Shown here: in pieces, positions 2,683-12,701 of the stretch | How the letters are laid out: every line of letters starts with the position of its first letter | Position numbering within the stretch: position 1 is the stretch's first letter | Source of the DNA: Candidatus Thorarchaeota archaeon | GTDB taxonomy: Archaea > Asgardarchaeota > Thorarchaeia > Thorarchaeales > Thorarchaeaceae | Length of the DNA stretch: 12,701 bases | Direction of reading: 5' to 3' | NCBI GenBank assembly: GCA_016840825.1 | Contig: JAEORN010000304.1 | Coordinates: 1-12,701 of the forward strand | The notes under the pieces: model-generated | The model's database searches: none | What the model saw: the letters and a program-made list of their open reading frames with translations, nothing else | What the model was told of the DNA's origin: nothing | Position numbers and translations under genes: made by a program

Positions 2683-2720
2683 ATGGGGGCTTCATTCCCC
2701 CATTCTTTTCTCTCTTTTTG
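2683..2720 (+). terminator. Hairpin plus T-rich tract ending the regulator/toastrack operon
   Basis: A 7-bp stem (ATGGGGG at 2683-2689 with CCCCCAT at 2697-2703) encloses a 7-nt loop. It is followed by a pyrimidine tract with TCTTTT and CTTTTTG. It begins 15 nt after the stop of copy B. Archaeal termination depends mainly on the T-tract, so the hairpin may instead help 3'-end stability. Confidence 0.6.
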
Positions 2721-2738
2721 TATCAAAAGCAAAGATGT

Positions 2739-4160
2739 ATGACAAAAGTTATCGCTTGGATATGCAATACGCATGGCATGGTCGCAGGAAATAGATTCCT
2801 TGATATCGTATCCTCTGTCACAGATAGAGGTCTCTCTTTTACCTTCAAGAAACAGCCCTATACTATCCTCTACGGAAAGGAATATTGGAATGCCACTCCT
2901 GAGCAAACTAGAATTGCTCTGAGGGATAATCTCGCATTAGCCACCACGATGCACCTACCCATCGTCTTTTCCAGTCCTGGGATAACCTATGACACTCCAC
3001 GAGCCATGCTAATGCCTCATTTCTTCGAGAACTTTGTCAGGGATATCCCATCCTGTACCGAGGTTGATGGCACTGATACGAATCTCCTCATGCAGCAATT
3101 CTTCAATACGAAATATCTGTTCACCAAGGATCCCATCAATCAACCCTCTGATGTTCCTGTTGCTGATGCTGGACGAGCCATCATCGGGATGAGCTTTGGA
3201 AAGGATAGCCTCCTTACCTATGCCGTTGCGCAAGAGCTTGGACTTGACCCTGAGATAGTGTATATCGTTGAGGAGAGCATGACCTACGAGGAGAAGCATA
3301 AGAGCGCACTTGGTGAGCAATGGGCCAAGGAATTCGGGAAGCAGATGCACATACTGCACCACGATACCGGTAAGCTTCGGGACTATAACCATCTCGGATT
3401 GCCCTTCTCAGAATTCGGATGGGGTTTGCAGACAACCGAGTATGCTCTTGAGATGATACCCTTTGCATACAAGCTCAATGGAAGATATCTCCTGTTTGGT
3501 AATGAGCAGACTGCATCAGAAACCTACATGGATGAGAAGGGAGAATGGACAGTCTATCCTTGCTATGACCAATCGCATGAATGGACTGTTCAGATTGACC
3601 AGATTACTCAGAGGTTCTCTGGTGATTCCATTCAAACTGGAAGTTTAATTGAACCATTAATGGATATGATGGTTCAAAGGACGTTAGTCCACAGGTACCC
3701 TGAGATTGCCAAGTACCAAATGAGTTGCTTTACTGAAACTGAAGCAGGACGGGACTATCGCTGGTGTCATTCCTGCGGTGTCTGCGCCAAGATGTACCTC
3801 CTTTGTGTTGGGTCTGGAATGGATCCGAGCGATGTAGGCTTCAAGGAGAACATGTTAGATGGAACTGAGAAGGTTCATCATTTCACCTTGTTTGGAGGTA
3901 AATCTAAGCTCACCTATGCTAATACAGCTACTGCTCGAAATGAGCAGCTCTTTGCTTTCTATTCAGCTGCGAAGAAAGGCGCAAAAGGATCCCTCGTTGA
4001 GAAGTTCAAGGGGTCTGAGCTATTCGAAGAAGCCAAGGAACGAGAGGATGAGCTCTTCAAGACCTATATCTCCCTATACGAACCTATTAGCGTTCCACCA
4101 GAGCTGAAGGATGCTGTCATGTCGATTTACAAAGAGGAGATTGGTTCATTCGAGCTTTAG
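2739..4160 (+). CDS. PP-loop ATPase, MurL-like (UDP-MurNAc-L-Ala-L-Glu epimerase family)
   Basis: I chose the ATG at 2739 (473 residues). An in-frame TTG at 2718 would add seven residues but sits in the terminator T-tract, and neither start has a Shine-Dalgarno site. Residues 152-157 (SFGKDS) form a PP-loop, the pyrophosphate-binding signature of enzymes that adenylate a substrate and release PPi. Further features match the layout I recall for bacterial MurL (EC 5.1.1.23, which uses ATP giving AMP and PPi to invert L-Glu to D-Glu): GNE at 254-256, a W-C-x2-C-x2-C-x-K motif at 342-351, a fourth Cys at 356, and a late F-x-L-F-G-G. The Cys cluster may bind metal. No membrane segment is present, so it should be cytoplasmic. 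The next genes encode a Ddl-like ligase and a GNAT enzyme, which supports work on a peptide. The family is fairly likely; the substrate is unknown, since a murein precursor is not expected in an archaeon. A different PP-loop amidating or epimerising enzyme remains possible. Confidence 0.7.
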   Translation: MTKVIAWICNTHGMVAGNRFLDIVSSVTDRGLSFTFKKQPYTILYGKEYWNATPEQTRIALRDNLALATTMHLPIVFSSPGITYDTPRAMLMPHFFENFVRDIPSCTEVDGTDTNLLMQQFFNTKYLFTKDPINQPSDVPVADAGRAIIGMSFGKDSLLTYAVAQELGLDPEIVYIVEESMTYEEKHKSALGEQWAKEFGKQMHILHHDTGKLRDYNHLGLPFSEFGWGLQTTEYALEMIPFAYKLNGRYLLFGNEQTASETYMDEKGEWTVYPCYDQSHEWTVQIDQITQRFSGDSIQTGSLIEPLMDMMVQRTLVHRYPEIAKYQMSCFTETEAGRDYRWCHSCGVCAKMYLLCVGSGMDPSDVGFKENMLDGTEKVHHFTLFGGKSKLTYANTATARNEQLFAFYSAAKKGAKGSLVEKFKGSELFEEAKEREDELFKTYISLYEPISVPPELKDAVMSIYKEEIGSFEL

Positions 4161-4219
4161 ATTTTGAACAGAGTGTGAATGTTTTAAGGAAGTATGCACA
4201 ACTGACATGCGATTATATC

Positions 4220-5209
4220 ATGCGCGTAGCGATTGTTGTTAATACTAGACTTCACGATAATGAGTTCGAGGTTGAATATGACCCGCCTCATACTATTGAG
4301 CTAATACGACATGGAATTGAAGCAGCCGGACATGAGTGTCTTTTCATTGAAGCAGATGAAAACGTTGCCGAGAATTTGAAGGAGCAACGCCCTGATCTCG
4401 TCTTCAACCGAGCAGAAGGGGTAAGAGGGGAAAGCCGTGAGTCCCATGTGCCTGCAATCATGGAGATGCTTGGTATCCCCTACATTGGCTCAAATGTCTT
4501 GACAACTGCTGTAGGGTTAAACAAGGCATGGACAAAGAAGATTCTCCATTACCATGGCATACTTACACCCCGTTTCCATGTGACTAACTCTCTCAAGGAC
4601 GCACAGGGACTTGATATCATCTACCCGTCCATTCTCAAACCAAATGAAGAAGGCTCTTCTGTTGGAATTAATGAGGATAATGTAGTACGATCTAAGGAGC
4701 AAATGCTTCGAAAATTGGAATCGATGTTGAAAGAATATCAACAGAATATATTGATTGAGCAATTCATTCAGGGACGAGAATTTAGTGTCGGGATGCTTGG
4801 TCGTCCCGAAAAAGAGCCAGAGATTCTACCGATTACAGAAGTAGACTTCTCACGACTTCCACCTGAGGTAGGAGGAGTATATGGACAACGAGCCAAGACA
4901 AAATATGATGAGATTGAGAACTACAGTTGCCCCGCGAAGATTTCTGAAGAGCTCAAGAACCGACTTGAAAAGACCACACTTGCAGTTTGCAAGCATCTTG
5001 ATATCGTAGACTTTGGGAGGATCGACTACAGGATGGACGCATCGGGAGATCTCTACTTCCTAGAGATTAATCCCCTACCTGGCATGGACTTTGATATGGA
5101 AAACAAAGACTTCTCATTCTTCCCATATATGGCTTCCAAGGCAGGATACTCTTACAATGAGCTCATGAGGAGACTAATCGAGTCCGCATGTTATAGATAC
5201 GGTCTCTGA
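4220..5209 (+). CDS. ATP-grasp ligase of the D-alanine-D-alanine ligase family
   Basis: The ATG at 4220 gives 329 residues beginning MRVAIVVNTR, the usual first beta strand of Ddl. The GTG at 4175 would add 15 residues lacking family character. N-terminal landmarks are PDLVFNRAEG at 58-67 and RESHVPAIMEMLGIPYIGS at 73-91. ATP-grasp elements follow: LKP with Lys140, the glycine-rich GSSVGI at 145-150, and IEQFIQGREF at 179-188. The mobile loop with CPA is at 237-239. Mg ligands are probably Asp269, Glu282 and Asn284 in EINPLPGM. The family joins two amino acids through an acyl phosphate with ATP to ADP. The loop that in DdlB reads YDYEAKY here reads YGQRAKTKY, so the substrate may not be D-Ala. 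It lies 59 nt after the MurL-like gene and 11 nt before the GNAT gene. A TTTTAAG at 4182-4188 could be a weak TATA element. Confidence 0.85.
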   Translation: MRVAIVVNTRLHDNEFEVEYDPPHTIELIRHGIEAAGHECLFIEADENVAENLKEQRPDLVFNRAEGVRGESRESHVPAIMEMLGIPYIGSNVLTTAVGLNKAWTKKILHYHGILTPRFHVTNSLKDAQGLDIIYPSILKPNEEGSSVGINEDNVVRSKEQMLRKLESMLKEYQQNILIEQFIQGREFSVGMLGRPEKEPEILPITEVDFSRLPPEVGGVYGQRAKTKYDEIENYSCPAKISEELKNRLEKTTLAVCKHLDIVDFGRIDYRMDASGDLYFLEINPLPGMDFDMENKDFSFFPYMASKAGYSYNELMRRLIESACYRYGL

Positions 5210-5211
5210 GG
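5208..5211 (+). promoter_or_regulatory. Shine-Dalgarno site of the GNAT gene
   Basis: GAGG overlaps the ligase's TGA stop and lies 9 nt before the GTG at 5221. It supports that GTG as the start and coupled translation. Confidence 0.6.
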
Positions 5212-5220
5212 AATGACCAC

Positions 5221-5748
5221 GTGAAATCAAATGATAGTACGACACGATCTGCCTTGAATATCTGGAAAGAGATCGTACCAACTGTAGATGAACTACTAGG
5301 AAGAGAGTCTCATATCATCTATCCTGGAGGGACAGATCCGTACTATCAGTGGTTCGTAGAACTTGAATCAGATGCCTTTAGGTCTGAGCTACGTTATAGT
5401 GCGGAAGAATTGGAAGAGCGGTTATCGAATGATGATCTTCTCTTCCTCTTCATTACATCCTCAAAGGGACGAGAGGCTGTCGTACTTGCCTATGAGGACC
5501 CTGATAATCCCGGGAGTGCACTCTATTTGGACACAATCGCTGTCAAGACAACTGGACATGGCCTTGGCTCACTGCTCATGAAGACTCTCATAAGATATGC
5601 TATAGCCAAATCCTATAGTCGGGTGAGACTTGATACAGAGGATATGAATGAGAAGGGTCAAAAGCTCGTCAAGTTCTATCAAGGTATTGGGTTCACTACT
5701 ACCGAAACGACAGACGATGGCAATGTAACTATGGAGCTTACACTCTGA
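5221..5748 (+). CDS. GNAT-family N-acyltransferase
   Basis: This is a 175-residue soluble protein with a GTG start. The GNAT core is recognisable: the beta4/alpha3 acetyl-CoA motif is at about 102-120 (YLDTIAVKTTGHGLGSLLM, with the pyrophosphate loop TTGHGLG), and motif B is at 151-158 (KFYQGIGF). The N-terminal 60 residues are acidic and helical, without similarity I recognise, and probably shape the acceptor site. It should transfer an acyl group from acyl-CoA to an amine. Its position 11 nt behind the Ddl-like ligase suggests the acceptor is an amino acid or peptide made by the two upstream enzymes, either capping or inactivating it. It could also be an unrelated protein N-acetyltransferase. 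The fold is confident; the substrate is unknown. Confidence 0.85.
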   Translation: MKSNDSTTRSALNIWKEIVPTVDELLGRESHIIYPGGTDPYYQWFVELESDAFRSELRYSAEELEERLSNDDLLFLFITSSKGREAVVLAYEDPDNPGSALYLDTIAVKTTGHGLGSLLMKTLIRYAIAKSYSRVRLDTEDMNEKGQKLVKFYQGIGFTTTETTDDGNVTMELTL

Positions 5749-5749
5749 C

Positions 5750-6778
5750 CTACTCAAAGTTCCTTCCTGTTAGGACTGCAACGAAGGTGCCCTTAATTGT
5801 TACAAAGTTGTCTGCTAGGTCAGATATTACCGCAAGTGTGCTCGCTGATGCAGGGAGAACATACAGTCCTTCTTCTTGTCGAAGAACCTTCGCGAACTCC
5901 ATCATCTTGGACTCAGAAGCGTAGTCCGCAAAGCCATTCGATTCGTATAAGGCATCTAAAGCTTCCTGACCATCATATGAATGCCAGTTGGTCAAAGGTT
6001 CATTGAATTTGGTTTCCTTGATCTCATCTCTCCCGAGATCTACAATCTTCCTACTTTTCACCTTCCAAGATTTCACAATTGGATTTCCACGTCTAGTACT
6101 GGTAGCAACCATCTTTGGGATATGAGGTATCTTTCCGGATTCAAGTAACCGTTTGAATCCTATGTGAATGCCTGCGATTGTAGTACCGTTTCCAACAGGG
6201 CAGAACACATAATCTGGAGCTTTTCTAATATCCCGATATATCTCGTTTGCAATCTCACCATAGGCATCAAGGGATATTGATTTCACAGAATCACTACCCG
6301 GGTTTGCATCGAACCAGCCATTCTCTTTTGCCTCTTGTATTGACAGTTCGACCAGATCCTCATACTGTCCAGGATGGAAATGCATTATTGCCTCAGCTTC
6401 ATGCATACGCTTCATCCTGTCCTTAGGAACGTGATATCCCTTCGGAATGTAGATATGAGCTGGAATCTCATAGAGCCTCGCAGCCCAGGCAAGGGCTGTG
6501 CCAAAGTTGCCACATGAGGCAGAAGTGACTGCAGTAGCTCCGATATGTTTTGCGTGATCCATAATAGCAAGAGCTATCCTATCCTTTTGGGTGCCTGTGG
6601 GGTTTCCTCCTTCGAATTTTAGATATAGCTTCTCACATCCTACTGCTCTCGCAACATTCCGTGATTCTATAAAAGTAGTCGACCCGAGGAACTCTCTCCA
6701 TTTTCGAGAGCCGTTCTTTTTGGCAGCACTGGCTTGCCCACTTTCGTTTTTGCCAGAATCCTTTGAGTCACCATTCAT
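5750..6778 (-). CDS. PLP-dependent threonine synthase-like enzyme (fold type II)
   Basis: This 342-residue enzyme has a Lys/Ser/Gly-rich N-terminal stretch of about 25 residues. The fold-type-II PLP signature NPTGTQKDR at 59-67 contains the Schiff-base Lys65. The phosphate-contacting and substrate loops appear as SCGNFG at 88-93 and PVGNGTTIAG at 194-203. A late LPASAS matches the active-site Ser/Ala region of threonine synthase. Family members eliminate or replace a beta or gamma leaving group on an amino acid; threonine synthase uses O-phosphohomoserine. True threonine synthases usually read TGSFKDRG, and this protein has TGTQKDRI, so a related activity is possible. It is cytoplasmic. It is convergent with the GNAT gene, with one base between the stops, so it is not in that operon. 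The fold is confident; the exact reaction is not. Confidence 0.85.
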   Translation of the reverse strand: MNGDSKDSGKNESGQASAAKKNGSRKWREFLGSTTFIESRNVARAVGCEKLYLKFEGGNPTGTQKDRIALAIMDHAKHIGATAVTSASCGNFGTALAWAARLYEIPAHIYIPKGYHVPKDRMKRMHEAEAIMHFHPGQYEDLVELSIQEAKENGWFDANPGSDSVKSISLDAYGEIANEIYRDIRKAPDYVFCPVGNGTTIAGIHIGFKRLLESGKIPHIPKMVATSTRRGNPIVKSWKVKSRKIVDLGRDEIKETKFNEPLTNWHSYDGQEALDALYESNGFADYASESKMMEFAKVLRQEEGLYVLPASASTLAVISDLADNFVTIKGTFVAVLTGRNFE

Positions 6779-8193: not shown

Positions 8194-8212
8194 AGATGGA
8201 ATGATTCCATCT
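8194..8212 (-). terminator. Palindrome at the stop codon of the giant surface protein
   Basis: A 19-nt inverted repeat, AGATGGAAT and ATTCCATCT around one central base, overlaps the TAG stop. It could fold as an 8-bp hairpin with a 3-nt loop. The following minus-strand sequence (TATATTTA) is only modestly T-rich. It may be a 3' stability element or a protein-binding site rather than a strict terminator. Confidence 0.35.
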
Positions 8213-11200
8213 ATGCTACTATCTTCACGGGCCGAAGGTTGACGACTCGATGCTCTCCTTCTATGCTATCGTACTCGAGCATCCCCACAAGCTCACCTTG
8301 TGCGCCTGGTTGAAGCTCGAAATCGAGCTGTACGATCGACAGAGTATCTGGTTCTACTGTACCAATCGTCTTTGTCTTGATAGCATCAGTAAGATCAGGA
8401 ATGCCAAGTATCACCATCACATTGGACATAGCATTCTTTGAGCCGTTCCTGATGACCACACCAAAGACGACCTTGCCTTCTCGGATCTTGTACTCTACTG
8501 CGATATCCATACCTGGCTCGAGTCCCTCACTAGCAGGTTCTGCTCGCGTCACGAACTCCATCGCCTTCCTACGGTCTCTGATACGCTTCACTCCAACTGC
8601 GGCGACAAAGGCCAGTGCTATCACTGGAATCAGCTGCCAGCCCCAATGGATGGTCGGCCCAAGGAAATCGTCAGGGTCAAGGATGAAGTCACCATCAGAG
8701 TCTGCTGAAAGGGGATTCGTTCCGTAGACGAAGATCTCATCGTAGTCTGACAATCCATCATGATCTGTATCCCAATAGGTCAAGTTGGTACCGTACGCAC
8801 GTTCCAGCGTATCATTGAGCATATCATTGTCAGAATCGATGCTTAGGGGATTGCTCTCATAGACCTCGATCTCATCGTAGTCATTGATTCCATCATTATC
8901 GGTGTCAGCGTCGATGGGCGAGGTGCCATAGATCCTCACCTCATCATAGTCTCCGACACGATCAAAGTCAGAATCATAATACCATGGATTTGAACCATAG
9001 GTGATGACCTCTTCGTAGTCGTTTAGCCCGTCTCCTTCGCTATCAGGATTGGTCGCATTCGTATTGAAGATACCAATCTCTTGCGAATCGCTTAGATCAT
9101 CTCCGTCTGTATCCTCAAGCAATGGGTCTGTTCCATAGGTCCAGTATTCCAATCCATCCTCAATGGAATCACCATCGGTATCTTCATCTAATGGATCAGT
9201 GCCTATATCGACCTCTATGCCATCGATCAGGTCATCATTGTCTGTATCCTCATCGTCAGGTCTGGTTCCGTATACCCTGAGTTCCTCTAGGTTTCCAAGT
9301 CCGTCGTTATCAGAGTCATAGACAGAGTCCAAGATACCTGTGTAGGTCATGTTAGTCGTCGGGTCAGTGAAAGTCAAGGTCACCTCTTCCCAGTCTGACA
9401 AGAGGTCACTGTCAGTGTCGTTTAGGAGCGGATCGCTCTTCCACTTGTTTATCTCGACGCCGTCCTTGAGCTTATCGTCATCTGAGTCAGAATCGAGCGG
9501 GTCTGTCCCATACTCATCCACTTCCTCGAAATCTGTTAGTTCATCGTTGTCTGTATCATCGTCTAATGGATCAGTATGATAGATATGGACTTCCTCATGA
9601 TTGGTTAGTCCATCGTCATCCTCATCATCATTATAGTCCGACTTGCCGTCATCGTCCGAATCCTTGTCCCTGGGATCTGTCTCTGTGAGGACACACTCCT
9701 CATAGTTCGTAAGAAGGTCCCTGTCCTCATCATCGTCACCATCATTGATAGAGTCGTTATCAGAATCAGCATCTCTGGGATCCGTCTTTGTCAGGAGGAT
9801 CTCATCCAGATTGCTCAATCCATCCTCATCAATGTCCCAATCCGCATCAGATACACCATTGCCCTGTGTGCTATAGGCAAGCGGATCGGTCAGTGTCTTA
9901 TTCACTTCCATGAAGTCGGTCAGATCGTCTCCATCAGTATCCTCTTCTCTTGGATCTGTCCCCAAGATCAGCTCCTGGTTATCTAGGAGACCGTCGTCAT
10001 CAGAATCATCCTTCAATGGGTCTGTATTATGAGTGTTCACTTCAGAACCATCACTCAATGTGTCGGAGTCTGTATCCCACTGAAGCGGATCAGTTTCGAA
10101 TACTGAAATCTCATCGTAATCTGAGAGACCATCATCATCCGTATCTGTATCATTCAACAGAGTGAAGTAGGTCCGTGCCTCCTCAGAGTCCTCTAGCCCA
10201 TCTCCATCCGAATCCCTATTGTTGGGGTCACTAGAGTAATAGAAGAGCTCATCCCAGTCATCTATGGTGTCGCCATCAGTATCTGCCTTATTCGGGTCAG
10301 TCCTTTCGCTGAGGACGAACAGCTCATAGTAATCGGATAGACGGTCACCATCAGTATCAATGAGTGTACAATTAGTTTCATAGACGTATATCTCATCGAA
10401 GTTGGATATTCCATCTCCATCCTCGTCATCAAGATCGTCAGGGATGGTGTCTCCATCGCTATCGACTTTGTTCGGGTCAGTGTGACTATTCCAGACTTCG
10501 TCATTGTCCGCAATGTTGTCGTCATCTGTGTCTTCGTCGAGAGGGTCTGTTTCGAAGATATTCACCTCGTCCCCATCAGTCAACGAATCAAAGTCACTAT
10601 CTGCATTCGCTGGGTCGGTCCCGTTCTCTAGTTCTTCCTTATCATTCAGTCCGTCATTGTCTTGGTCCGCTTGGGTCGGGTCGGTCTCATAGATCTTCCA
10701 TTCATCCCAATCTGATAGACCATCTCCATCGGTATCATTGTTGTTGAGGTCAGTTCCGAGCTCGAGCTCCTTCTTATCGTTGATATTGTCGCCATCACTA
10801 TCTGCAAGATTCGGGTCACTGCCATAGGTGTTTATCTCTGAGCCGTCCGAGAGCTGGTCACCATCGCTGTCCCAGAGGGTCGGAGAGGTCTCATAGACAT
10901 AGACCTCGTCATAGTCTCCTATACCATCTCCATCAGAATCGGTACCTGTTGGGTCAGTATGCCAGATCTCATCTTCCTCATAGTCAGTTAGACCATCATC
11001 ATCTGTATCCATATCTGTGGGTGAAGATCCTGCAGTGTATACCTCATAGCCATCTAAGAGGGTATCCCCATCAGTATCATTGACCGTAGCATCAGTATGC
11101 CATCCAAAGACTTCTAGACCATTTGAGAGACCATCATCATCAAAGTCCTCATCGTAATCGTTAGTTCCATCGTTATCAGTGTCTGTGTCATTTGCTAGGT

Positions 11201-12701
11201 AACCTAGGTCAAGAACCTCAAACCCATCGTAAAGTTGGTCACCATCAGAATCCTTCACAAGTGGATTACAGTTGTAGATGAATAGTTCCTCATAATCTGT
11301 TAATCTATCATCATCAGTATCATTCAGTAATGGATCAGTTCCATATGTATAGACCTCTGGACCATCGAATATCTCATCATCATCAGTGTCCGAATCTCCT
11401 GGTGATGTATCGTAGATATCAATCTCATCTCCATTCGAGATGCCATCATGGTCTGAGTCTAGGTCATAGTCAGAGGTTCCGTTGAAGTAAGTGCTCCACT
11501 CAGTCGGGTTCGTGAGAGTCACGTTATTCTCGATATAGTCATCCAGATTGTCGGAATCCGTGTCATTGAGAAGAGGTGACGTACCCAAGTCGTTGTACTC
11601 CTGACCGTCTAAAAGCAGGTCACCATCCGTATCCTCATCGAGTGGATCCGAACCGATGGTCATGACCTCTAAACCGTCTTCTATGCCATCACCATCTGTA
11701 TCTGCGACTGAGGGATCTGTCTCGTACTTGTCGACGATACCATCTCTGTCTAGGTCTTCACCATACTCACCTAGGTCCCATCGACCGTTATGATTGGTAT
11801 CATTGAATCCATCGAACAGGCCATCACCGTCTGTATCAAAATTGGTGGCGTTAAGACCTATGTCAATCTCAAGGCCGTCACGGAGCATATCGCCATCGGT
11901 GTCTCGTTTTGTAGGATCAGTATCATAGGTCCTGATCTCCTCGAGGTTTGTAAGACCGTCATTATCCTTGTCGTCAGCTCCATCCAGAATTCCATCATCA
12001 TCAGAGTCACTGTCTAATGGATTGGTCTTGACATCTAGAATCTCTTCTGAATCAGTGAGTTGGTCATTGTCAGAATCTGCATCGAGAGGATCCGTATAGA
12101 TATCAGGATCAAGGTCCACCCCAGTAAGTCCATTTGGATCGTTTATGCCGTCATAATTCATTTCTTCCAGATTGGTAAGGCCGTCATTATCAAGGTCTTC
12201 CTCCCAATCAAGGATACCATCGTCATCAGTGTCATTATAGGTTGGATCTGTCTGGGTCTCAAAGACTTCGAACCAGTTCGGGAGCAGGTCTCCATCCTCA
12301 TCATCAAAGTAATCTGAAACCCCCACGGCACCTCCTGAGTCCCATAGGGTTGGGTCAGTATAGGTAATGTACAATTCGATACCGTTGGATAGGTCATCAT
12401 TATCCAAATCCTCGTCATAGTCTGTAATCGAGTTATCATTGGAGTCCTCATCGTTGGGATCTGTACCGAGGATATTCACCTCGTCCCCATCTTTCACTCT
12501 ATCATCATCACTATCAGGGTCTCGAGGTAACGTATACGTCACATAGAGTTCCTCATAGTTGTTCAGACCGTCAAGGTCACTGTCCTCAAGGTCATCATTC
12601 GTTGAATCCCCATCTGTATCAGCGAGGATAGGTGAGGTCTTGGTCCAGTAGATCTCATCACCATTCGAGAGATTATCGCCATCAGTATCGAACTCGTAGT
12701 C
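8211..12701 (-). CDS. Giant thrombospondin-type-3-repeat surface protein with C-terminal anchor (N-terminus outside window)
   Basis: The frame stays open to the right edge, so at least 1,496 residues are visible and the start is missing; the GTG at 12542 is internal. Residues from the edge down to about 150 before the end form roughly 52 Asp-rich units of the type D-(T/S)-D-x-D-x-(L/I)-x-D-x-x-E, followed by a spacer usually ending Y-G-T-D-P. This is the thrombospondin type 3 calcium-binding consensus. The array is followed by a single hydrophobic helix (LIPVIALAFVAAVGV) and a stop-transfer KRIRDRRK. A predicted beta-rich domain of about 110 residues then lies in the cytoplasm. The protein should project from the cell as a long calcium-stiffened rod, serving as an adhesin, spacer or surface-layer component. 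Cysteines are very few. Only the start and any N-terminal functional head are unseen. The TPR gene follows 111 nt downstream. Confidence 0.9.
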   Translation of the reverse strand, partial: DYEFDTDGDNLSNGDEIYWTKTSPILADTDGDSTNDDLEDSDLDGLNNYEELYVTYTLPRDPDSDDDRVKDGDEVNILGTDPNDEDSNDNSITDYDEDLDNDDLSNGIELYITYTDPTLWDSGGAVGVSDYFDDEDGDLLPNWFEVFETQTDPTYNDTDDDGILDWEEDLDNDGLTNLEEMNYDGINDPNGLTGVDLDPDIYTDPLDADSDNDQLTDSEEILDVKTNPLDSDSDDDGILDGADDKDNDGLTNLEEIRTYDTDPTKRDTDGDMLRDGLEIDIGLNATNFDTDGDGLFDGFNDTNHNGRWDLGEYGEDLDRDGIVDKYETDPSVADTDGDGIEDGLEVMTIGSDPLDEDTDGDLLLDGQEYNDLGTSPLLNDTDSDNLDDYIENNVTLTNPTEWSTYFNGTSDYDLDSDHDGISNGDEIDIYDTSPGDSDTDDDEIFDGPEVYTYGTDPLLNDTDDDRLTDYEELFIYNCNPLVKDSDGDQLYDGFEVLDLGYLANDTDTDNDGTNDYDEDFDDDGLSNGLEVFGWHTDATVNDTDGDTLLDGYEVYTAGSSPTDMDTDDDGLTDYEEDEIWHTDPTGTDSDGDGIGDYDEVYVYETSPTLWDSDGDQLSDGSEINTYGSDPNLADSDGDNINDKKELELGTDLNNNDTDGDGLSDWDEWKIYETDPTQADQDNDGLNDKEELENGTDPANADSDFDSLTDGDEVNIFETDPLDEDTDDDNIADNDEVWNSHTDPNKVDSDGDTIPDDLDDEDGDGISNFDEIYVYETNCTLIDTDGDRLSDYYELFVLSERTDPNKADTDGDTIDDWDELFYYSSDPNNRDSDGDGLEDSEEARTYFTLLNDTDTDDDGLSDYDEISVFETDPLQWDTDSDTLSDGSEVNTHNTDPLKDDSDDDGLLDNQELILGTDPREEDTDGDDLTDFMEVNKTLTDPLAYSTQGNGVSDADWDIDEDGLSNLDEILLTKTDPRDADSDNDSINDGDDDEDRDLLTNYEECVLTETDPRDKDSDDDGKSDYNDDEDDDGLTNHEEVHIYHTDPLDDDTDNDELTDFEEVDEYGTDPLDSDSDDDKLKDGVEINKWKSDPLLNDTDSDLLSDWEEVTLTFTDPTTNMTYTGILDSVYDSDNDGLGNLEELRVYGTRPDDEDTDNDDLIDGIEVDIGTDPLDEDTDGDSIEDGLEYWTYGTDPLLEDTDGDDLSDSQEIGIFNTNATNPDSEGDGLNDYEEVITYGSNPWYYDSDFDRVGDYDEVRIYGTSPIDADTDNDGINDYDEIEVYESNPLSIDSDNDMLNDTLERAYGTNLTYWDTDHDGLSDYDEIFVYGTNPLSADSDGDFILDPDDFLGPTIHWGWQLIPVIALAFVAAVGVKRIRDRRKAMEFVTRAEPASEGLEPGMDIAVEYKIREGKVVFGVVIRNGSKNAMSNVMVILGIPDLTDAIKTKTIGTVEPDTLSIVQLDFELQPGAQGELVGMLEYDSIEGEHRVVNLRPVKIVA
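8214..8510 (-). other. C-terminal cytoplasmic beta-rich domain of the surface protein
   Basis: About 99 residues of alternating hydrophobic and polar segments starting at VEYKIREGKVVFGVVIRNGS, with a later NVMVILGIPD and ending near RPVKIVA. The pattern suggests an immunoglobulin-like beta sandwich of the kind seen in adaptin-ear or archaeal surface-protein tails. I do not recognise a specific family. Its place behind the stop-transfer sequence makes it intracellular. Confidence 0.55.
8589..8645 (-). other. Transmembrane segment of the giant surface protein
   Basis: The minus strand encodes WGWQLIPVIALAFVAAVGV, 19 hydrophobic residues, directly followed by six basic residues within KRIRDRRK. 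Charge distribution puts the repeat array outside and the C-terminal 115 residues inside. Confidence 0.85.
8664..12701 (-). repeat. Coding array of about 52 thrombospondin-type-3-like calcium-binding units
   Basis: I counted about 52 units by eye. Most are 23-25 residues: a calcium loop such as DTDGDGLSDYDE and a spacer such as VYVYETDP. A second type has two acidic loops about 12 residues apart (for example 11950-12010 and 9590-9660). A third type has a shortened, Gly-rich first loop. DNA codons differ between units, so the array is old and diverged rather than freshly expanded. Confidence 0.88.

Follow-up and report, generated by a model that had tools for sequence, protein, structure and literature searches.

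A four-gene unit in Asgard archaea

The DNA analysed here is a stretch of 12,701 nucleotides (the window) from contig JAEORN010000304.1 of a Candidatus Thorarchaeota archaeon. It carries three consecutive genes on one strand, encoding a MurL-like PP-loop enzyme (PP), a Ddl-like ATP-grasp ligase (DDL) and a GNAT N-acyltransferase (GNAT), and a convergent gene for a pyridoxal phosphate (PLP)-dependent enzyme (PALP; Table 1). An earlier note, made from the sequence alone, had proposed the first three as a peptide-forming cassette; these three genes stood, but the fourth member had been missed. The open reading frames as opened span 2718-4160 (480 codons), 4175-5209 and 5221-5748, all on the + strand. 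Because homologues set the start of DDL at ATG 4220, the gaps are 59 nt between PP and DDL and 11 nt between DDL and GNAT, the spacing that the note had given. The start of PP is more likely ATG 2739 or ATG 2778 (460 aa) than TTG 2718, because 13 related loci align only from residue 7-20 (counted from codon 2742) and because the predicted model has a predicted local distance difference test score (pLDDT) below 50 over its first 16 residues.

Table 1. Genes of the unit and their positions in the window
Gene	Position	Strand	Product
PP	2739..4160	+	MurL-like PP-loop (N-type ATP pyrophosphatase) enzyme; 473 aa from ATG 2739
DDL	4220..5209	+	Ddl-like ATP-grasp ligase; 329 aa; open reading frame opens at GTG 4175
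GNAT	5221..5748	+	GNAT N-acyltransferase; 175 aa
PALP	5750..6778	-	PLP-dependent fold-type II enzyme, threonine-synthase group; 342 aa; convergent in the window

The 13 related loci place the source organism among the Asgard archaea: 11 are from Thorarchaeota metagenome-assembled genomes (MAGs), one is from Hermodarchaeota and one from Bathyarchaeota, with PP identities of 61-71%. Among the matches listed (the best 120 of 559 and the best 120 of 566, 45 of which were used for the model), the named PP homologues belong to Thorarchaeota, other Asgard MAGs and a few Bathyarchaeal or Miscellaneous Crenarchaeotal Group (MCG) records. These matches support an archaeal origin of the window DNA.

The order PP, DDL, GNAT is kept in 11 of the 13 related loci, the other two contigs stopping inside PP, and the gaps between the three genes range from -20 to 103 nt (L001-L011 and L054-L058, with longest-frame starts). 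PALP lies downstream in 10 of the 13 loci, and the L002 contig stops inside GNAT. In a search of 227 Asgard genomes, PP was found in 19, as a strong match in 18 and at 25 bits in one (G105). DDL was detected in 67 (E≤1e-30), and its matches of at least 51% identity fall in exactly the same 18 genomes as strong PP, the next match below that set having 42% identity. PALP (E≤1e-40) was present in 17 genomes, all among those 18, and was not found in the other 210. In the PALP-less genome, G216, the offset of PP from the contig end equals that of L002. PALP shares a contig with PP in 17/17 genomes, 144-4014 bp away; in G204 and G206 PP is split across contigs, and its 3' part lies on the PALP contig. 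The chance of this overlap is about 5e-27 under independence, a figure inflated by shared descent, and 18/227 is a biased frequency because some genomes came in through the study's own loci. This co-occurrence indicates that PP, DDL, GNAT and PALP are one conserved unit, patchy in its distribution, and the adjacency in relatives that the earlier note had suggested looking for was found.

PALP is convergent and downstream in most genomes. It lies upstream of PP on the same strand in G182 and G183. In G049 it is on the opposite strand and separated by two genes, and an o-succinylbenzoate-synthase-type enolase-superfamily gene (L058:5458-6603, - strand; 286 bits, cut-off 200.65) stands between PALP and the other three. 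The cassette was also found on a contig binned as Bathyarchaeota (L011, genome G004), with a PP 64% identical to that of the window, and a PP homologue with an MCG name (P0074) has 63% identity. This sharing reflects either transfer between the groups or mis-binning.

The earlier note had seen none of the usual Mur ligases nearby, and the same holds on a wider scale. Mur_ligase_M was over cut-off in 0/20 related genomes (the 18 Asgard genomes with the cassette, G004 and G300), with one sub-threshold match containing stops in G002; the model was positive in 12/14 controls. The cassette is apparently undescribed, as searches of open-licence literature (other than bioRxiv) brought up no description of it in the titles and abstracts listed.

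Family and predicted fold of the PP-loop enzyme

PP contains an SFGKDS loop and the motifs GNE, YDQS, SLIEPL and C-x12-C-x2-C-x2-C. Against the NCBIfam MurL model (NF041275) it scored 19.3 bits, below the cut-off of 700, compared with 836.5 bits for an annotated MurL and 321.7 for a Pseudonocardia relative; a genome search with this model gave sub-threshold matches in 2/7 genomes (22.1 and 29.4 bits) and in 0/14 controls. No Pfam family matched PP at E≤1, PF06508 (QueC family) included. In profile comparison with hhalign, PP profile A1 matched X. sacchari murL at 97.8% over 197 columns (E 9.4e-13 for the single comparison), and profile A2 matched an annotated MurL at 94.7% over 205 columns, the alignment spanning the PP-loop, NE, SLxxPL and WCxxCxxC motifs. 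The same profiles reached 6.8% and 1.3% against an Asgard QueC. By this measure PP groups with MurL and not with QueC, indicating kinship at the level of the family. Three MurL-type sequences were compared, with the Pseudonocardia record H8 left out; PP Q277 did not align with any MurL Gln, so that this residue is not common to both, which leaves the weight of the readings as it was. PP residues E255 and S301 (counted from codon 2742) do each align with a residue of MurL.

The predicted model of PP adopts a PP-loop fold like that of QatC, QueC and Cap9, with QatC and Cap9 among the nearest neighbours in structure searches. MurL structures were not among the fold-search matches, which carries no weight either way. 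A PDB sequence search with PP gave no match at E≤1, and one with profile A1 gave weak PP-loop matches only (best E 0.0014). The fold is also common to TtuA, MnmA and QueC, and PP could on that ground be read as a tRNA or nucleobase-modifying enzyme with coincidental neighbours. This is very improbable: sequence matches to these three are weak and lie mainly in the P-loop region, and PP co-occurs strictly with DDL and PALP. A role in tRNA modification was therefore set aside, a LarE-like match (L106, 68.7%) being likewise confined to the P-loop region, and the family assignment agrees with the earlier note, which had named an unrelated family as the alternative. PADLOC matched 0/6 PP proteins and thus gave no support for PP as part of a known defence system.

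The ligase, acyltransferase and PLP enzyme

DDL matched Pfam Dala_Dala_lig_C with 117.8 bits (cut-off 24). It fell below the cut-off of every one of the 25 NCBIfam models listed of 55, including the Ddl models PRK01372 (186 bits, cut-off 243) and TIGR01205 (165.1 bits, cut-off 245.65). Aligned with E. coli DdlB, to which it is 29% identical, DDL keeps the EGSS loop, AK, RID, N-x-x-PG and the active-site Ser. The equivalent of Ser150 is thus kept, and the position of Tyr216, which with Ser150 we take to be an active-site residue of DdlB, is Thr in 17/17 DDL sequences aligned. The Glu15 equivalent is ambiguous in the alignment, and a 6-residue insert lies ahead of the second-substrate Ser. Judged by the model cut-offs and the active-site Tyr, DDL is not a D-Ala-D-Ala ligase; the note's Ddl-like assignment stood.

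GNAT matched PF00583 (Acetyltransf_1) with 27.3 bits (cut-off 20.7) and TIGR03103 with 10.4 bits; it is the least conserved member, with 30-40% identity to 16 relatives. PALP, which has the threonine-synthase fold, matched Pfam PALP with 174.9 bits and NF004996 'threonine synthase' with 363.6 bits (cut-off 266), and TIGR00260 with 70.6 (cut-off 167.1). Plain threonine synthesis was set aside despite the NF004996 score, because in 20/20 genomes another gene, not in the cassette, gives the best thrC (TIGR00260) match, which is over cut-off in 14. DDL is a diverged relative of Ddl, and PALP one of threonine synthase.

Other Ddl-like genes were met in the DDL searches. Two Asgard proteins (L090, 671 aa; L092, 650 aa) are fusions of an S-adenosylmethionine (SAM) methyltransferase with a Ddl-like ATP-grasp domain, both by Pfam, and many Asgard DDL-search matches have open frames of similar length; such fusions are perhaps another peptide-type ligase family. 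In G091 (Asgard) a Ddl-like protein with 42% identity to DDL stands beside a Ddl-like and GNAT fusion, which speaks for a link between DDL and GNAT. At L089:318-2541 (- strand) the gene of a Ddl-like ligase (36% to DDL) immediately precedes that of a KamA-family radical-SAM aminomutase, a pairing that suggests a beta-amino-acid peptide.

Neighbouring genes

Upstream of PP in the window, 1100-1873 and 1894-2667 are tandem paralogues with near-identical N-terminal segments and LiaF-like C-termini (weak, sub-threshold matches), preceded by an ArsR-type regulator gene. Relatives of the LiaF1-like, ArsR and MEM genes lie again upstream of PP in Thorarchaeota loci, and not in L009-L011. Downstream, 8211-12542 (- strand) encodes a 1443-aa protein with bacterial thrombospondin type 3 (TSP3) repeats and a C-terminal membrane segment recognised by eye. 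The LiaF-like, ArsR and tetratricopeptide repeat (TPR) genes were rejected as core members, as none was found next to the cassette in L009 and L011. Other upstream genes are not conserved: a methyltransferase (L005, L011), a major facilitator superfamily (MFS) protein (L057), and a 1106-aa GNAT-containing protein (L010) with a relative in L056. A class-III aminotransferase and a 2,4-diaminopentanoate dehydrogenase-like gene (L005:3534-5900, - strand) stand just upstream of the cassette in a single Thorarchaeon.

These neighbours bear on the idea that the target of the cassette is a protein or surface polymer, with PP or DDL joining an amino acid or a dipeptide to the macromolecule. In the window the cassette adjoins LiaF-like, TPR and TSP3-repeat genes, of which the LiaF-like and TPR ones are its neighbours in Thorarchaeota loci as well, and Cap9, which links a nucleobase to the N-terminus of a protein, offers a precedent. 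QatC and Cap9, among the nearest folds to PP, have partner proteins as their known or proposed targets (PMC13329287, PMC13279940). Against this, L009 and L011 hold the four genes without LiaF, ArsR or TPR neighbours, and the PADLOC search found none of the PP proteins to match. A protein-modifying role is made less likely because no partner substrate protein is conserved in the loci examined, and we consider the macromolecular reading improbable.

Related gene sets in other organisms

Among 300 Bathyarchaeota-phylum genomes (G004 included), 19 PP matches were found. One is that of G004 and two have 33-34% identity; the other 16 (L038-L053) are distant, with 21-31% identity to the window PP over the matched part. 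A DUF1611/DgcN-like gene lies directly upstream in 13/16 of the distant loci, and a GNAT gene nearby, on either strand, in 9/16, a count that covers only the fetched stretch round each relative. When five of these distant loci were extended to 12-19 kb, a PALP headed the set in 4/5, L061 being without PALP and DUF1611. The DUF1611 member of L065 scored 210 bits for that domain and 153.7 bits for NCBIfam N-acetyltransferase DgcN (cut-off 480). L062, L064, L065, L066 and L038-L053 thus present a PALP - DUF1611/DgcN-like - MurL-like operon, often with a GNAT gene, as a sister-type system.

The DgcN-like gene in these relatives raises the alternative of a catabolic or detoxifying route that takes D-amino acids or D-peptides towards L-amino acids, akin to DgcN/DgcA. 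The dgcN gene is described as belonging to a pathway that irreversibly racemizes acidic D-amino acids (PMC12363236), and the weak PP relative in G105 adjoins an enolase-superfamily gene. An ATP-grasp ligase and an AMP-forming enzyme would, on the other side, be costly for catabolism; the four genes have no conserved transporter, peptidase or oxidase gene as a neighbour; and MurL runs only from L to D (PMC8788868). We regard this route as quite unlikely.

Searches of plasmids by tblastn gave four records with a 34% PP relative as query and four with MurL as query. In an Exiguobacterium plasmid (L102:4320-10730), genes for a PLP enzyme, a MurL/QueC-like protein, a non-ribosomal peptide synthetase (NRPS)-like protein and an MFS transporter stand in a row. 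The PLP enzyme is cysteine-synthase-like and 22% identical to the window PALP, the MurL/QueC-like protein reaches 96.6% in hhalign, and the NRPS-like protein has adenylation, carrier and condensation domains. The row may be a small natural-product gene cluster that employs a step of the MurL type.

A candidate pathway

We tentatively favour, at somewhat less than even weight, a reading in which the four genes form a dedicated biosynthetic cassette for a small N-acylated peptide, made by ligation, acylation and then a MurL-type inversion outside murein. PALP would make or remodel an amino acid, and DDL would couple it to a second amino acid via an acyl-phosphate (ATP to ADP). GNAT would acylate the free amine of the dipeptide. 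PP would then activate the resulting N-acyl residue by adenylation of its C-terminal carboxylate (ATP to AMP and PPi) and invert the alpha-carbon, with hydrolysis following, as proposed for MurL. The product would be a soluble or surface D-residue dipeptide, and the logic that of MurD2/MurL, in which an L residue is added and then inverted, moved outside murein. We infer the substrates, the order of steps, the inversion and the product, and the order of the final two steps, GNAT then PP, is a guess.

The alpha-hydrogen of an N-acyl residue becomes more acidic when the residue is activated, as is established chemistry. This would explain why an acyltransferase stands beside PP in the Asgard sets and in many Bathyarchaeal ones, and the order PALP, DDL, GNAT, PP is proposed for that reason. 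MurL is the closest model in the literature: a ligase first adds an L residue, and MurL then spends one ATP, with release of AMP, to convert the C-terminal residue to D, a reaction that does not run backwards. That MurL adenylates the carboxylate is a hypothesis of those authors (PMC8788868).

A serious rival is that PP would form an amide, adenylating the C-terminal carboxylate of the N-acyl dipeptide and coupling it to ammonia or an amine. The resulting amide might serve as a compatible solute. QueC couples an adenylated carboxylate to ammonia, and the PP-loop partner in the synthesis of N-acetylglutaminylglutamine amide (NAGGN) likewise forms an amide; a PP-loop enzyme, an ATP-grasp ligase and a GNAT are the NAGGN toolkit. 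The QatC/QueC/Cap9-like fold predicted for PP and the 10.4-bit match of GNAT to TIGR03103 are in keeping with this chemistry. QueC-family enzymes are reported to be reused to join a carboxylate and an amine, as shown for Cap9 and proposed for QatC (PMC13329287, PMC13279940). The profile comparison, in contrast, strongly prefers MurL over QueC, and PP has no glutaminase or asparagine-synthetase family match in Pfam or NCBIfam. We rate an amide ending as possible, though not probable.

From the predicted model, PP shares its fold with amide-forming QueC-family enzymes, so that inversion would be one possible outcome, and the present data do not separate an inverting from an amide-forming last step. 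The two Bathyarchaeal PP relatives at 33-34% (L059, L060) depart from the pattern of the parallel gene sets and have no DDL, GNAT or PALP alongside; their neighbours are a DUF1848-match protein (radical-SAM-like by eye) and genes that by eye are ATP-binding cassette (ABC) transporter-like.

The broader claim, that Asgard archaea without Mur ligases make a D-residue acyl dipeptide by ligating and then inverting, with a MurL-type adenylating epimerase at work outside murein, we hold to be a possibility still short of likely. If it is true, archaea would hold a wider family of ATP-driven peptide epimerases, of which the MurL reaction is one use made by bacteria, MurL chemistry would gain a wall-independent branch, and the Asgard archaea, held to be closest to the ancestry of eukaryotes, would make a dedicated and undescribed peptide metabolite. 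The cassette offers a test bed for the way in which MurL inverts its residue and for the divergence of inversion from amide formation within one PP-loop fold. Because the four genes are short and always together in the genomes searched, the pathway could be reconstituted, either in vitro or in E. coli cells.

Comparison with known systems

The closest parallel is the alternative peptidoglycan pair MurD2/MurL of Xanthomonas and some actinobacteria, in which a ligase gene adjoins a MurL-type PP-loop gene and MurL inverts a C-terminal Glu (PMC8788868). PP and MurL have in common the PP-loop, NE, SLxxPL and WCxxCxxC motifs. The cassette differs in that its ligase is of the ATP-grasp (Ddl-like) and not the Mur fold, in its added GNAT and PLP enzyme, in the 19 bits of PP against a cut-off of 700, and in the lack of any Mur ligase over cut-off in the 20 genomes related to the window. 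DDL resembles bacterial Ddl in its Dala_Dala_lig_C domain, EGSS loop, AK, RID and N-x-x-PG motifs and active-site Ser, and differs in the Thr in place of Tyr216 (17/17), the 6-residue insert and the sub-cut-off model scores.

QueC, QatC (qatABCD) and Cap9 (type IV CBASS, cyclic oligonucleotide-based antiphage signalling system) share with PP a predicted QueC-like PP-loop fold. PP differs from them in having no PF06508 or PADLOC match and only 6.8% and 1.3% in hhalign to an Asgard QueC, and no qat or CBASS partner genes were recognised beside it. NAGGN synthesis also applies ATP-grasp, GNAT and PP-loop chemistry to a dipeptide. In that cluster the GNAT and ATP-grasp parts are fused, the PP-loop enzyme is of the asparagine-synthetase type with a glutaminase domain, and a peptidase takes the place of the PLP enzyme. 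PP, by contrast, lacks a glutaminase or asparagine-synthetase match, and the cassette GNAT has only 10.4 bits to TIGR03103. The Bathyarchaeal operon shares a PALP, which in L065 matches the same NCBIfam model, a distant PP relative and often a GNAT; it has a DUF1611/DgcN-like gene where the cassette has DDL, and its PP is 21-31% identical over the matched part. The cassette is made of known kinds of enzyme, in a new combination and setting.

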